Positions 24,399 to 29,981 of a DNA stretch of 64,000 nucleotides are shown piece after piece. How positions within the stretch are numbered: the first letter of the stretch is position 1; every line of letters begins with the position of its first letter. The notes below the pieces were generated by a model. It was not told the origin of the DNA and searched no databases. It was given only the letters and a program-made list of their open reading frames with translations. The stretch is from Falsiruegeria litorea R37. GTDB taxonomy: Bacteria > Pseudomonadota > Alphaproteobacteria > Rhodobacterales > Rhodobacteraceae. A program made the position numbers and the translations under genes. Where the stretch lies: NCBI RefSeq assembly GCF_900172225.1, contig NZ_FWFO01000001.1, forward strand, positions 1,860,001-1,924,000. Direction: 5' to 3'.

Positions 24399-24857
24399 AT
24401 GAAAACCTTTTCTGCAACACCTGCAGACATCGACAAGAAGTGGATCCTGATCGACGCCGAGGGCGTTGTTCTGGGCCGTCTTGCTTCGATCGTCGCCATG
24501 CGCCTGCGTGGCAAGCACAAAGCGTCGTTCACCCCGAACATGGACATGGGCGACAATGTCATCGTGATCAACGCTGACAAAATCCAGATGACCGGCAAGA
24601 AGCGTGACGAGCACTTCTACTGGCACACTGGCCACCCGGGTGGCATCAAGTCGCGCACCAAGCAGCAGATCCTCGAGGGTGCACACCCCGAGCGCGTCGT
24701 GACCCAAGCGGTCAAGCGCATGCTGCCAGGCAACCGTCTGGCCCGTACACAGATGACCAACCTGCGCGTCTACGCTGGTGCCGAGCACCCGCACGAAGCC
24801 CAGTCTCCCGAAGTTCTGGACGTCAAGTCCATGAACAAGAAAAACACCCGGAGCTAA
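24399..24857 (+). CDS. rplM: 50S ribosomal protein L13
   Basis: 152 aa, large-subunit protein that binds 23S rRNA early in assembly. It starts [30 protein letters not shown] and keeps the family blocks [39 protein letters not shown] and [22 protein letters not shown]. It is paired with rpsI 6 bases downstream, the universal bacterial L13-S9 arrangement. Codon use is optimised, as expected for a ribosomal protein. Confidence 0.99.
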
Positions 24858-24863
24858 TGACCG

Positions 24864-25349
24864 ATGGCTGATCAGATCAATACTCTCGAAGAGCTGAGCG
24901 CCGTTGCAGGCGTTGAAACCGTGGCCGAAGAAATCGTCCTGCGCGAACCCGTGCGTGACGAACTGGGCCGCTCCTACGCCACCGGCAAGCGTAAAGACGC
25001 TGTTGCTCGCGTGTGGATCAAGCCGGGTTCCGGCAAGGTCACCGTGAACGGCAAGGAAATGGACAAGTACTTTGCCCGTCCCGTTCTGCAGCTGATCCTG
25101 CGCCAGCCGTTTCAGGTTGCTGGTGTTGAAGGCGAGTTCGACGTTGTCGCAACCGTCAAAGGCGGCGGCCTGACCGGTCAGGCCGGTGCGGTCAAGCACG
25201 GCATCTCGAAAGCGCTGCAGCTTTATGATCCCGCCCTGCGTGGCGCTCTGAAAGCCGCCGGCTTCCTGACCCGCGACAGCCGCGTTGTGGAACGTAAGAA
25301 ATACGGTAAGCGCAAAGCGCGTCGTTCGTTCCAGTTCTCGAAGCGTTAA
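24864..25349 (+). CDS. rpsI: 30S ribosomal protein S9
   Basis: 161 aa. An N-terminal extension of ~35 residues typical of alphaproteobacteria ([22 protein letters not shown]) precedes the S9 core: [23 protein letters not shown], then [19 protein letters not shown] and the C-terminal [18 protein letters not shown], whose last residues reach the ribosomal P-site tRNA. It is followed by a strong terminator at 25374. Confidence 0.99.
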
Positions 25350-25373
25350 GCTTCGTATTTTTCGAACAGAAAA

Positions 25374-25400
25374 GGGCCACGCAGTCGCGTGGCCCTTTTT
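25374..25400 (+). terminator. Intrinsic terminator of the rplM-rpsI operon
   Basis: Perfect 9-bp stem GGGCCACGC (25374-25382) / GCGTGGCCC (25387-25395), AGTC loop, then TTTTT. It separates the ribosomal operon from the globin-cyclase pair. Confidence 0.93.
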
Positions 25401-25428
25401 CGTTTTTGGCATCATATTTGGTCTCAAT

Positions 25429-25474
25429 TTGATTTAAGTTCCCGTTCTGGCCTAATGTACATGCATATTGCATG
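25429..25474 (+). promoter_or_regulatory. Promoter and palindromic operator candidate of the globin-cyclase operon
   Basis: TTGATT (25429-25434) - 18 bases - TAATGT (25453-25458) resembles a -35/-10 pair. Immediately downstream, CATGCA-TAT-TGCATG (25460-25474) is a perfect 6-3-6 palindrome centred about 27 bases before the globin ATG, where a repressor would cover the transcription start. The binding protein is unknown. Confidence 0.4.
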
Positions 25475-25493
25475 AATATTGGCGGAATTTGTT

Positions 25494-25862
25494 ATGGGCA
25501 CTACGGTGTACGAAAAGTACGGCGGCTTCAAAACCATCAGCCGCATTGTCATGAGCTTTTACGAGATGGCACTGGATTCCGACCAAATCGGCGATTATTT
25601 CGCGGATGTGGACATGCCGCGCCTGATGGACCACCAGACCAAGTTCATTTCATCTCTGGTGGGCGGTCCTGTATCCTTTTCCGATGACCGATTACGTGTC
25701 GTGCATGCTCAGCTAAATATCTCGCACGCGGACTTTGATGAAATGGGAAAGTTGTTGTCCGAGGCCCTAAGCGATCATGGCATGAAGCCTGCAGATGTGG
25801 ATTTCGTGTTGCACGAGATCGAAAGCAAACGCTCGATCATCGTGACGGCGGACCTGGGATGA
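25494..25862 (+). CDS. Truncated haemoglobin (group I-like)
   Basis: 122 aa, 2-on-2 globin. The N-terminal TVYEKYGGFKTISRIVMSFYEMAL is the group I A/B helix pattern with Tyr23 at the B10 position. DHQTKFISSLVGGP (about residues 46-59) is the E-helix/GGP block. VVHAQLNISHADFDEM has His71 at the proximal F8 position, and the H-helix part continues to the end. Such proteins bind O2, NO or CO. ATG 25494 is used; a TTG five codons earlier is possible. The stop overlaps the start of the cyclase gene (ATGA, 25859-25862), so the two proteins are made from one message in linked amounts. This suggests that the globin is the haem sensor or gas supplier for the cyclase; that link is inference. Confidence 0.88.
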   Translation: MGTTVYEKYGGFKTISRIVMSFYEMALDSDQIGDYFADVDMPRLMDHQTKFISSLVGGPVSFSDDRLRVVHAQLNISHADFDEMGKLLSEALSDHGMKPADVDFVLHEIESKRSIIVTADLG

Positions 25863-26908
25863 GCATCACTGCCATCAACGAGCAATTGCTGCGATCCATC
25901 GGGGTGGGCGTTGCCATCGTCGATGGGGTCAGTCACGAATTTATCTTTGCCAACAAACCTTTTTGCGATTGGTTCGGGACCCCTGACCAGGTGACCCGGC
26001 TTAGCGAACTGATAGAAGGGCTCTCTCCCGAGGACCTAGGAGAGAACGACGCCGAAGGCGTGATGTTCACCGGCGAGGTCGAGATCAAGCGCAAGCGCCG
26101 GACTTTGGTGATTGCGATCTCTATTTCGGCGACCTTGTCGGGCGGGCAGCGGTTGTTGGTGGTCGAATGCCAGAACATTACCCGCATCCGCGAGCTGGAA
26201 TCGATGATCGACAGCTATTCCACCATGGTTGAACGCAACACGCGCGAGCTGGAGCGGGAAAAGGAACGAGTAGAGAAACTGTTGCTGAATCTGATGCCGC
26301 GCTCGGTTTACGAGGAATTCAAAACCTTTGGCGTTGTCACGCCGCAACTGTACAATCAGGTCTCGGTCGTGATGCTCGATTTTGTCGACTTCACCGAATT
26401 TGCCACCAAGACCGATCCGACGGTGACACTGGCGGAACTCAACGATATTTTCACCGCCTTCGATCGCATCGTCGAACAATATGGTTGCGAGCGGATCAAG
26501 ACCATCGGTGATGCCTATCTGGCCGTCAGTGGCATGCCGGATCCAGCGCCGGAACATGCCTCGGCCGTGGCGCATTGTGCGGTGCGGTTCCTGCGCTACC
26601 TAGAACGGCGCAACGAAAGCCATCAGCACACCTGGCGCGCGCGAATCGGGCTTGGGACAGGGGCCGCAGTCGGCTCGGTCGTGGGGATACAGAAATACGT
26701 CTATGACGTCTTTGGCCCGGCTGTGAACATGGCCTCACGGCTGCAAATGATGGCCGACCCGATGGGTATCGTTGCCCCGGAAGAAATGAAATTCGATCTG
26801 ATCGACGAGTTTCAGATTGGCGATTTCGGCGCGCATCAGATCAAGGGTCTGGGCGAATTAGACCTGATCACGGTCGAAGCCAATCTGCGGCCGGCGCATG
26901 TGCGTTAA
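25859..26908 (+). CDS. PAS-coiled coil-class III nucleotidyl cyclase, soluble-guanylate-cyclase-like
   Basis: 349 aa. A PAS/HNOBA-like sensor domain (about 1-110) is followed by a charged signalling helix with the sGC-type segment LEREKERVEKLLLNLMPRSV (about 131-150), then a class III cyclase domain (about 165-345). Metal-binding Asp174 (LDFVDFTEF) and Asp218 (KTIGDAYLAVSGMP) are present. Purine-selecting Lys214 and Asp283 (YDVFGPAVNMASRL) point to ATP rather than GTP; transition-state Asn290 and Arg294 are conserved. So it should be an active adenylate cyclase. Unlike animal sGC there is no fused H-NOX domain; the overlapping upstream gene supplies a haem globin instead. Output would be cAMP; receptor proteins are not in the window. 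Confidence 0.93.
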   Translation: MSITAINEQLLRSIGVGVAIVDGVSHEFIFANKPFCDWFGTPDQVTRLSELIEGLSPEDLGENDAEGVMFTGEVEIKRKRRTLVIAISISATLSGGQRLLVVECQNITRIRELESMIDSYSTMVERNTRELEREKERVEKLLLNLMPRSVYEEFKTFGVVTPQLYNQVSVVMLDFVDFTEFATKTDPTVTLAELNDIFTAFDRIVEQYGCERIKTIGDAYLAVSGMPDPAPEHASAVAHCAVRFLRYLERRNESHQHTWRARIGLGTGAAVGSVVGIQKYVYDVFGPAVNMASRLQMMADPMGIVAPEEMKFDLIDEFQIGDFGAHQIKGLGELDLITVEANLRPAHVR

Positions 26909-26910
26909 TC

Positions 26911-27747
26911 TCAGCGTTTGAATTGGGGTAGGTCAGAGGCCAAGGGGATCTCTCCGATGAAGCCCCCCGATGCCAAAAGCCGTTTGTCGCCGCCGCGTTT
27001 CCGAGCGATTTTGCGGGCAGTACGTTTGATCTCTTTCATCGCGCGATAGCTGAACGGCCCACGCCCGTCGTCGGTGGCGGCTTTGCCAAAGTCGGTGCGC
27101 TCGCTGCCGATGACACTGACAGGGATGTCTGTTCGGCCGCTCAGATCCGAGAACATTCCTTGTACGGCAACGGCCGGCTCCAGCTGAAAGGCACGGAAAC
27201 CGGGCCATGGCCGGGTGATGAAATCATCCAGGTGGTCGCAATAGCTCTGGGACAACTCCAGCAGTTGCGCAGCTCCGCTTGGGCTGAGCAGATAGGCCGC
27301 TGCACTGGGCAATACACCGACGATCTGGCGCAAGGTCTGGCCGCCAAAGGTGCACGTGGGACCAAACCGATAGCGCCCGCCAACTGCGTCAAGTTTGACC
27401 AACTCATACCCACCATGTTCGTTGCCCAGGCTTTCGATCACAGCACCCGCTGAAGAAGACAACAGAATATCATCCTCAAAAATCACGCCAGGTCGGCCGG
27501 TTTCGACAATGGTTTCCCAGGTCTTGCGGTGACTTTCGAACACCGCGACCTCGGTCTTTGTCATGCTCCAGTAGGGCCCCCAGCGGTGGGGATTGTAGCG
27601 GGGTGAGGTGTAGTCGGGCGAGGCCGATGCATCCGTGGCCGAGACACGAATGGGGGCGGTGATGCCCCCATGCGCGCATTGCTCTGCCATGAAAACGGCC
27701 CGATCCGGAACCCGGTCGAGGTTCAGGAAAAAGACCTCTGTTTTCAT
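26911..27747 (-). CDS. Glycosyltransferase family 25 protein
   Basis: 278 aa. GT25 (LPS galactosyltransferase-type) pattern: N-terminal VFFLNLDRVPDRAVFMAEQC, the SMTKTEVAVFESHRKTWETIV block and the metal-binding GVIFEDDILLSS (EDD). A basic C-terminal segment (KRTARKIARKRGGDKR) follows. The start ATG overlaps the stop of the upstream fusion gene by 4 bases, so it is part of the same surface-glycan operon. It probably adds a hexose to LPS, capsule or a glycoprotein; donor and acceptor are unknown. Convergent with the cyclase gene, 2 bases apart. Confidence 0.85.
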   Translation of the reverse strand: MKTEVFFLNLDRVPDRAVFMAEQCAHGGITAPIRVSATDASASPDYTSPRYNPHRWGPYWSMTKTEVAVFESHRKTWETIVETGRPGVIFEDDILLSSSAGAVIESLGNEHGGYELVKLDAVGGRYRFGPTCTFGGQTLRQIVGVLPSAAAYLLSPSGAAQLLELSQSYCDHLDDFITRPWPGFRAFQLEPAVAVQGMFSDLSGRTDIPVSVIGSERTDFGKAATDDGRGPFSYRAMKEIKRTARKIARKRGGDKRLLASGGFIGEIPLASDLPQFKR

Positions 27748-29981
27748 TTGAAGATCTTGCGAACCTTGCGCCATTTGTATTTGGACCGCCCCTTGGCCTT
27801 TTCGCTCATGAACGCTTCGCCCGCTTCTTCGGCCTCAAGCTTGCGCAGCAGGACTGGTGCGTTCCAGGGATCATAGTCGATCAGCTTTTCTTGGGTCAGA
27901 TCGGGCCGCATGAACGTCTGTGCGGTCTGGTTCAGCATCGAGGCCGCAAACGAGAACGAACTGTTCGAAATCGCCAGATGGTCACCCATCGTCAACGCGG
28001 CAAAGTCGGTAAAGAACCCATGCTCCAGATCACTGGCGGGCAGATCACGCTCGGTGATGACGTTGAAATCCTTGAACGCAGGCAGCACCGCGTCAGGCTC
28101 ATCCGAGGCGATGTACAGCGTAAGATCAGGGTGCTGTTCGCGCAGGCCTTGCAGCCAATCCAAATACCAGCTTTCAGGCGCGATAAAAAACACGCCGGTG
28201 CCGAAATCCCCGCGCCGCAAGTGCAGTGGAACGACGGGGCCGGGTTGCGCGTCAAACAGCGCCTTCAGCTGTGCGGCGCGCTCGGCATAGGCGCCTTTGA
28301 ACGCAAAATGCGCCTGCATCAGCTCTTTGTAGGGTTTGTAATAGCGCGTGTGATACTGAAAGAACCCGGCGAAATCGGTGGCTGGCCGCACCTCGGGGTC
28401 ATTGGCGACCGTGCTGTTGGACAGCTCGTACCCCTGTTCTTCGATCTTGAAGGGCAGTTCGGGCATCTCGGTCAGGCCCGGGGTCACGTTGAAAATGTCA
28501 TCACCCGCCCAGGTCGAGTTGACCGGGGTATAGTCGTATTCGCGCGCATAGGTCTGGATGAACAGGTATTGGAACACCTGATTGGCGAACCGACCCATCG
28601 AGCCCACAATCGAGCTGCCAACCAGAGGGCGACGGACATAGAGCGCATCACCCCATTCCTCGCTATAAGGCGTATTGGTCATCACACGGATGAACCCGTG
28701 CTCTTCCAGAAAGGCGTCGATCTCGTGGATCAAGGCGCAGCCTTCGTAGAGTTCTGAGTAATTAACTTCGATCTGCAACGCTTTGATATGTTGCAGAAGT
28801 TTCGTCGCGCCTTTCAGCGCTTTCAGCTCAGCCCCCTGAATATCCATCGCAATGAAATCAAGCGTGGACGGGTCGATCCCGGCCTCGTCTAGCAGCGTGT
28901 CGATCAATGCGGTGCGCACGGTGATCTGCTTTTCGACACCGATCTTGGGGTAAAGCTTTGCGTGATCCTTAAGTTCAAGCAGCGAGCTGGATTGGTTCAT
29001 CGAGGTGATGTTGAAGGTGGCGTTGCCCTCTTCTTCGGCAGCAGCGGATTCGATGACGCTCACATCACTGTCCGAGGCAAACCGATCACGCAAACCACCG
29101 GCCAGATCGGGGTTGGCTTCAACAAACACAATCGGGCTGATGCCTTTGGCGCGATATGTCGTGATCTCGTTGCCCTCATGCCCGCCGACATGCAGCACAC
29201 CTGTGGGCTTGATCCCGAAATGCGCCATGCGGTCGAAATCCAACTCGATCTCGCCGCCTTCTTTCAGGAACGGTTTCATCAGCCGCTCGTGCAGCGCCAA
29301 GTAGTTGGAATAGCTGTAATCTTCGGTCTTGTCGGTGAATTTCTTCACCTCTGTGAACTTGCCATTCTGCACCCGTAGTACGCGATAGCCAAAGCGGCGC
29401 AGGTACGACCAGACATTGCGTAGCGAGGTGCCGGCATCCAGGAAGGTGCCGCCATATTCGAACTGCAGGAAATCCACCTGGCCGCGGCGCAGCAGGTTCC
29501 GCGTGCCACGTAACACGTCATATTCGGCGCCTTCGACGTCGACCTTCAGGAACCGGATCTGCTCGGTCCGACCGGCCCAATAGGTGTCCATCGTGGTTCC
29601 GGGGACGGTAATGGCGTCAAAACCTGCGGTCAGCAACTGATCCTCAACGCTGGTGCGTCGGTGTAGCGAGCTGAGCCGCGCGTCATCGCGATAGACGTGA
29701 AAGGTCAGATCCTCGTCCCGGTTCGACACCGCGTTCCAATTCAAGGTGACCTTGTCGGCGATGGTGCCTTGCAGAACCTGATGGGCATCTTTGGACGCCT
29801 CAAATGCGTGGATTTTCGCATCCGCCATCTTCAGCACGCTTTCCGACCACTTGCCGTGGTGCGCGCCAACGTCGAACACGATATCTCCGGGGCGGATGCA
29901 TTTCTTGATGATCATCCGTTCTTCGTCGGTGATCGGGTCATCCTTGTGGCTTTTGCCGCGGAGCTTTTTCAGGAACTTCAT
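27744..29981 (-). CDS. Three-domain fusion: FkbM methyltransferase - FkbM methyltransferase - GT11 fucosyltransferase-like
   Basis: 745 aa. Domain 1 (about 1-235) is an FkbM SAM methyltransferase (DIVFDVGAHHGKWS; RFLKVDVEGAEYDVLRG). Domain 2 (about 250-460) is a second FkbM domain (GVLHVGGHEGNEI; LDFIAMDIQGAELKALKG), with its own SAM loop and acidic motif, so both look functional. Domain 3 (about 465-710) resembles alpha-1,2-fucosyltransferases of GT11: SMGRFANQVFQYLFIQTYA, VPLHLRRGDFG and the AISNSSFSFAASML block. A basic tail follows (KAKGRSKYKWRKVRKIFK). It would transfer a deoxyhexose and O-methylate sugars of a surface glycan. The GT25 gene overlaps its 3' end. Reactions are inferred from families. 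Confidence 0.85.
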   Translation of the reverse strand: MKFLKKLRGKSHKDDPITDEERMIIKKCIRPGDIVFDVGAHHGKWSESVLKMADAKIHAFEASKDAHQVLQGTIADKVTLNWNAVSNRDEDLTFHVYRDDARLSSLHRRTSVEDQLLTAGFDAITVPGTTMDTYWAGRTEQIRFLKVDVEGAEYDVLRGTRNLLRRGQVDFLQFEYGGTFLDAGTSLRNVWSYLRRFGYRVLRVQNGKFTEVKKFTDKTEDYSYSNYLALHERLMKPFLKEGGEIELDFDRMAHFGIKPTGVLHVGGHEGNEITTYRAKGISPIVFVEANPDLAGGLRDRFASDSDVSVIESAAAEEEGNATFNITSMNQSSSLLELKDHAKLYPKIGVEKQITVRTALIDTLLDEAGIDPSTLDFIAMDIQGAELKALKGATKLLQHIKALQIEVNYSELYEGCALIHEIDAFLEEHGFIRVMTNTPYSEEWGDALYVRRPLVGSSIVGSMGRFANQVFQYLFIQTYAREYDYTPVNSTWAGDDIFNVTPGLTEMPELPFKIEEQGYELSNSTVANDPEVRPATDFAGFFQYHTRYYKPYKELMQAHFAFKGAYAERAAQLKALFDAQPGPVVPLHLRRGDFGTGVFFIAPESWYLDWLQGLREQHPDLTLYIASDEPDAVLPAFKDFNVITERDLPASDLEHGFFTDFAALTMGDHLAISNSSFSFAASMLNQTAQTFMRPDLTQEKLIDYDPWNAPVLLRKLEAEEAGEAFMSEKAKGRSKYKWRKVRKIFK

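Follow-up and report, generated by a model that had tools for sequence, protein, structure and literature searches.

A truncated haemoglobin gene paired with a PAS–helix–class III cyclase gene: a candidate two-subunit haem-regulated adenylate cyclase

The window, the whole stretch of 64,000 nucleotides of Falsiruegeria litorea R37 DNA that we analysed, contains a short globin gene that runs directly into a gene for a PAS–signalling helix–class III cyclase (Table 1). The globin matched Pfam Bac_globin with an E-value of 4e-15, its best matches in the PDB were group I truncated haemoglobins, and it carries the features of trHbN, namely the PF01152 fold, HisF8, the glycine motifs and a pocket with TyrB10 and GlnE11. 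A group I truncated globin with Tyr23 at B10 and His71 as the proximal ligand was what the original prediction had described, and both the Pfam and PDB matches and the residue alignment agree with it. The ORF starts at the ATG at 25494; an alternative in-frame TTG at 25479 is less likely as the start because the ATG is the conserved one among the relatives. The cyclase starts at 25859 within the stop codon of the globin (GGATGAGC), giving the four-base overlap that had also been predicted, and this ATGA arrangement suggests that the two genes are translationally coupled.

The surroundings of the pair were then compared with those in related genomes. The terminator after the S9 gene is strong and sets the pair apart from the operon upstream; it is kept in four genomes of the genus, and the next gene downstream of the cyclase lies on the opposite strand, implying that the pair forms a transcription unit of its own. 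The inverted repeat CATGCATATTGCATG is unchanged in four genomes of the genus and is absent from Ruegeria, so it appears to be lineage-specific; it is possibly an operator. No Rfam match was found within 24800-27200. On the minus strand at 26911-29981, a glycosyltransferase family 25 gene overlaps a gene of 745 aa that contains two stretches of FkbM methyltransferase type. These are likely surface glycan genes that were placed beside the pair, as other genera have TetR/PPK2 there, and the TetR/PPK2/MetA neighbours that recur in Ruegeria and Leisingera seem to reflect synteny alone.

Table 1. Features of the globin–cyclase pair in the window and of the related plasmid cluster.
Feature	Coordinates	Strand	Basis or remarks
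Intrinsic terminator 3' of the upstream ribosomal protein S9 gene	25369..25400	+	14-pair stem, U run
Inverted repeat CATGCATATTGCATG, between the putative promoter and the globin start	25460..25474	.	Conservation in the genus
Group I truncated globin gene, 122 aa	25494..25862	+	Pfam, PDB matches, residue alignment
Globin haem-site residues			Tyr23 (B10), Leu44 (E7), His47 (E10), Gln48 (E11), His71 (F8)
Overlap ATGA, shared by the globin stop (TGA) and the cyclase start (ATG)	25859..25862	+	Suggests translational coupling
PAS–signalling helix–class III nucleotide cyclase gene, 349 aa	25859..26908	+	
N-cap helix and PAS domain, aa 1-105	25859..26173	+	AF2, PAS_8, entropy
Signalling helix and cyclase-transducer segment, aa 108-157	26180..26329	+	AF2 helices 108-145 and 148-157; entropy
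Class III cyclase catalytic domain, aa 161-333	26339..26857	+	D174, D218, K214, D283, N290, R294
Same-strand cluster, Novosphingobium pentaromativorans plasmid pLA3	L198:3717-14063		

The cyclase matched Pfam Guanylate_cyc (E 2e-38) and PAS_8 (E 7e-6), and a match to HNOBA over residues 97-152 scored 20.1 bits, below the curated cut-off of 23.4. The metal-binding residues D174 and D218, the specificity residues K214 and D283, and the transition-state residues N290 and R294 align with those of solved adenylate cyclases, corroborating the predicted PAS–coiled coil–class III cyclase with a full catalytic set and an ATP-type Lys214/Asp283. The GTP-type specificity residues (Glu/Cys) are absent, and judging from K214 and D283, which are present instead, the enzyme is most likely of the adenylate type. 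All six residues are canonical in 90 of the 105 cyclases from distinct pairs.

The AF2 model of the cyclase (mean pLDDT 83) consists of an N-cap helix (3-13), the PAS domain, a long helix (108-145), a transducer helix (148-157) and the cyclase fold. With Foldseek, this model matches the human and Manduca soluble guanylate cyclases (sGC) end to end over ~370-391 columns, and among the solved structures in the Foldseek matches listed, only sGC subunits cover the whole PAS–helix–cyclase chain. The HNOBA/PAS–coiled coil–cyclase order is therefore present by AF2 and Foldseek, with the Pfam HNOBA match sub-threshold. The catalytic domain itself has its closest solved relatives among the mycobacterial adenylate cyclases, and also among the mammalian ones, and its ATP-type Lys/Asp differs from the GTP-type pair of sGC. 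The class IIIa mycobacterial Cya proteins (Rv1625c; Cya of M. intracellulare) resemble it in both catalytic domain and transducer at 33-36% identity; they are membrane-anchored and are not known to have a PAS domain or a globin partner. The linker, which had been taken as a mark of kinship with sGC, does not serve as one: it aligns with mycobacterial and mammalian adenylate cyclases, and in a published survey histidine kinases and animal guanylyl cyclases were both found to carry the signalling helix (PMC1592074), so that it is a general signalling-helix/cyclase-transducer segment and not specific to sGC by itself. Across the 105 pairs, the signalling helix (mean entropy 0.55, aa 116-160) is the most conserved region of the cyclase, above even the catalytic core, and variability is highest in the PAS core and the C-terminal tail; within the genus, the PAS domain is the least constrained part by dN/dS. 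This pattern is consistent with a signal-transmitting helix and with partner-dependent variation of the PAS surface. Within the genus, both genes have a dN/dS of ~0.03-0.04, which places globin and cyclase alike under purifying selection.

The original prediction was to be given up if the pair were not conserved beyond close strains, and we ran neighbourhood surveys from both genes, in which the pairing proved to be wide. With the globin alone as the query against one genome each of 84,980 species, 189 loci were obtained, and a cyclase lies directly downstream on the same strand in 78 of the best 80. The two unpaired loci are one where the cyclase is deleted (L033) and one where only its end is left (L042). 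Both are from Ruegeria (L033:6001-6369 and L042:5983-6393) and keep an intact globin ORF, representing natural losses of the partner. With the cyclase alone as the query in 385 genomes of the class, a globin lies directly upstream of all 17 matches (two of these, L101 and L107, being broken copies); cyclase matches under 200 bits, beyond the close cyclase clade, have no globin beside them. In a survey of the family (296 genomes, about one per genus), 20/20 listed globins of at least 157 bits are paired with a cyclase, and of the ten that score 48 bits or below, not one has a cyclase directly beside it; one of them has a weak, 26-bit cyclase-like match 1.1 kb away. This wide gap in scores implies that the paired globins are a distinct clade defined by their cyclase. 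The genes overlap by exactly 4 bases in 51 non-duplicate loci and by 11 in eight, and nearly all others lie within ~30 bases of each other.

Globin and cyclase are separate genes in all the pairs examined, with no fusion among them, so the locus does not have the single chain of a globin-coupled sensor, in which the globin is fused to its output domain; it has a stand-alone haem-protein gene tightly linked to a signalling enzyme, as in two-gene haem sensor/effector systems. Long open frames near the globin in G190, G880 and G876 were considered as fusions and were explained by chance extension upstream or by the presence of other genes. Another candidate, a 547-aa frame in G022 (L009:397-2037), is one protein in which 2Fe-2S, FAD and NAD domains precede a truncated-globin domain, that is, a ferredoxin/flavin reductase–globin fusion unrelated to the cyclase.

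The haem pocket is also strictly conserved. TyrB10, HisE10, GlnE11 and HisF8 (Y-x-H-Q-H) are invariant in 105/105 distinct pairs, with Leu, Met, Ile or Gln at E7, and this set is not shared by the 10 cyclase-free truncated globins from the same family. As a basic E10 residue is widespread in truncated haemoglobins generally (PMC4720485), HisE10 does not by itself mark out the paired globins; what is diagnostic is that it never varies. The paired globins share the fold family, TyrB10, GlnE11 and HisF8 with M. tuberculosis trHbN and cyanobacterial GlbN, and HisE10 with GlbN. They differ from both in forming a distinct clade with near-obligate linkage to a cyclase, whereas the usual roles proposed for other group I truncated haemoglobins are detoxification or electron transfer.

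The pair is found across many marine and soil bacteria, in Roseobacteraceae, Paracoccaceae, Stappiaceae, Rhizobiaceae, Phyllobacteriaceae, Sneathiellaceae, Kiloniellaceae, Tepidamorphaceae, Afifellaceae and Neomegalonemataceae, in gammaproteobacterial Granulosicoccaceae MAGs and on one Novosphingobium plasmid. Its spread is patchy (~7% of the genera in the family, 4% of the genomes in the class), and a globin present in so few genera of the family could have a cyclase beside it through an accident of synteny among close strains. This explanation is extremely improbable, because pairs persist at 43-58% identity, in varied genomic neighbourhoods, across no fewer than 11 named families and also outside the class, and it is refuted by the cyclase-first search and the family survey. 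The main clades are common to the globin and cyclase trees, the former resting on few alignment columns; in both, the second copies of Ruegeria cluster with Rhizobiaceae, and the gammaproteobacterial members are nested among Alphaproteobacteria. The shared clades suggest that the pair moves between lineages as one unit. One genome contains a second, divergent pair (L184; G864:C6:1135500-1149500), the cyclase of which is 35% identical to the reference relative used as query, as well as a degenerate pair.

We propose that the pair is a two-subunit haem-regulated nucleotide cyclase, similar to sGC, in which a truncated globin replaces H-NOX, a reading that we favour with moderate confidence. The truncated globin would be the haem-binding sensor subunit, the PAS domain and the signalling helix of the cyclase would receive its signal, and a dimer of the class III catalytic domain would make a cyclic nucleotide, which is most likely cAMP. 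When a small ligand binds, the fit of the globin to the PAS domain and helix would alter and so turn cyclase activity up or down. The ligand would most likely be O2 or NO, and peroxide, sulfide or the redox state of the haem could also act; sulfide is a possibility raised by the CysK, MetA and OsmC neighbours in some lineages. The original prediction had likewise placed a globin in the position of H-NOX, and it keeps the dedicated, strictly conserved pair, the sGC-like layout, the separate haem protein and the ATP-type site in its favour while losing the linker as a sign of sGC. Counting against two subunits are the lack of fusions, the two Ruegeria lineages that keep an intact globin without a cyclase, and 13 loci with a degenerate cyclase (discussed below). 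When an in-frame read-through globin–cyclase chain (L006, with the TGA read as Ser) was modeled by AF2, the linker had a pLDDT below 50, the pTM was 0.48 and the globin was not docked confidently, this being a monomer model and hence a weak test of docking; three rows of the globin alignment were partly misplaced.

Because the pocket resembles that of NO-dioxygenase truncated globins, the globin could have a catalytic role. TyrB10 and GlnE11 also make up the pocket of the NO-dioxygenating M. tuberculosis trHbN. Both residues have been named for ligand stabilisation (PMC4319818). The main rival to our reading is a detoxifying globin, an NO dioxygenase or a peroxidase, that shares an operon with the cyclase for the same stress and makes no contact with it, the cyclase responding to another signal by way of its own PAS domain; we regard this as possible and, on balance, unlikely. 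In several lineages, the cluster also contains flavin oxidoreductases that could reduce a globin, together with the peroxide-linked OsmC, and the globin has outlived the loss of the cyclase in the two Ruegeria. However, a detoxifying globin is expected to occur often without the cyclase, and the cyclase without the globin, and almost no such cases were found; moreover, stand-alone pairs such as the one in the window have no adjoining reductase gene.

A second form of the locus occurs in Rhizobiales, Kiloniellales, Granulosicoccaceae and some Rhodobacterales, where the pair adjoins a PAS hybrid histidine kinase and an OmpR-type regulator and is often located 3' of an alpha/beta hydrolase and a UbiE-like methyltransferase, or of OsmC and flavin oxidoreductases. 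The kinase is directly 3' of the cyclase on the same strand in G890, G952, G781, G864 and L088. On pLA3 (Table 1), OsmC and two FAD oxidoreductases precede the globin and the cyclase, after which come a hybrid histidine kinase, a response regulator, a CysK–glutaredoxin fusion and a PLP decarboxylase, all on one strand; the cyclase has lost both transition-state residues (I and Q), and the cluster perhaps serves redox or sulfur stress. Besides pLA3, N290/R294 are lost in 13 cyclase loci, several of which have also lost D174 or K214, and these losses represent at least three separate events on the tree. Degenerate cyclases are found at L008/L180, L062, L067, L074, L076, L078, L082, L085, L088, L161, L164, L165, L168 and L198, nearly all adjoining a PAS histidine kinase. 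Such a kinase adjoins 12/13 degenerate loci versus 17/78 canonical ones, with a Fisher p of 2e-6 that is overstated because the association is clustered on the tree. The haem pocket is intact in 13/13 of the degenerate loci. Cyclase decay beside an intact globin pocket implies that the role of the globin is not simply to support cAMP synthesis in every lineage, and cAMP cannot be the whole story in all of them. We also considered obligate heterodimers of degenerate and canonical cyclases and rejected them as a general explanation, since several degenerate copies are in genomes with a single listed globin match.

These loci raise another explanation, that globin, PAS domain and helix together are the conserved device and the cyclase is one output of it, so that the kinase-linked lineages would signal through the kinase and regulator and the dead cyclase would be a dimer scaffold. 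The repeated loss of catalytic residues next to kinases, with the haem pocket retained, would be in line with this, but the kinase may control only expression and no kinase is beside the pair in the window, to which the explanation does not apply; we think it quite improbable. A broader version, in which the pair represents a new family of two-subunit haem sensors whose globin, on a PAS–helix platform, drives an active adenylate cyclase in some lineages and a PAS kinase and regulator, with the cyclase as a dead scaffold, in others, is doubtful, though less so. If true, the kinase-linked platform would control the operon of OsmC, flavin oxidoreductases and CysK–glutaredoxin, and one haem sensor would have been rewired from a second messenger to a phosphorelay. 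The dead-cyclase lineages are a natural experiment on a change of sensor output.

To return to the two-subunit cyclase, the pair can be compared with several known systems. Bacterial H-NOX or NosP operons place a stand-alone haem sensor beside the histidine kinase or cyclase that it is thought to control; the two-gene design is alike, and here a class III cyclase would be the effector of a sensor that is a group I truncated globin. The sGC of animals consists of H-NOX, HNOBA-PAS, coiled coil and class III cyclase, and it shares with our pair the order PAS, long helix, cyclase and, as proposed here, a haem protein as the sensor; the pair lacks H-NOX and its haem protein is a separate 2/2 globin. 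HemAC-Lm of Leishmania is a globin-coupled, O2-sensing soluble adenylate cyclase in a single protein (PMC4534343, PMC12755159). It too combines a globin with a class III adenylate cyclase, but O2 control there is within one chain, whereas here a gene of its own encodes the truncated globin, with a PAS domain standing in between. No account of a globin–cyclase pair was found in the open-access literature, most subscription journals being outside the search, and its novelty is provisional. Few of the widespread truncated haemoglobins have an assigned signalling role, and a clade locked to a cyclase would give a 2/2 globin a sensory job; the sGC solution of haem subunit, PAS, helix and cyclase would then have been reached with an unrelated haem protein. 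Its small size, apparent solubility, ATP-type site and conservation make the pair suited to a direct test of whether haem ligands control the cyclase.

The single H-NOX of the genome (G000:C1:2772624) is ~0.9 Mb from the pair, and no H-NOX domain or partner was found within the pair itself. The same genome encodes 20 class III cyclases and seven cNMP-binding proteins, which together with the H-NOX suggest that cyclic-nucleotide signalling is probably in use there; the seven cNMP-binding proteins could be targets. A 4.4-kb stretch of this genome carries five consecutive class III cyclase domains on its minus strand (G000:C1:1300208-1304577; L116-L120).
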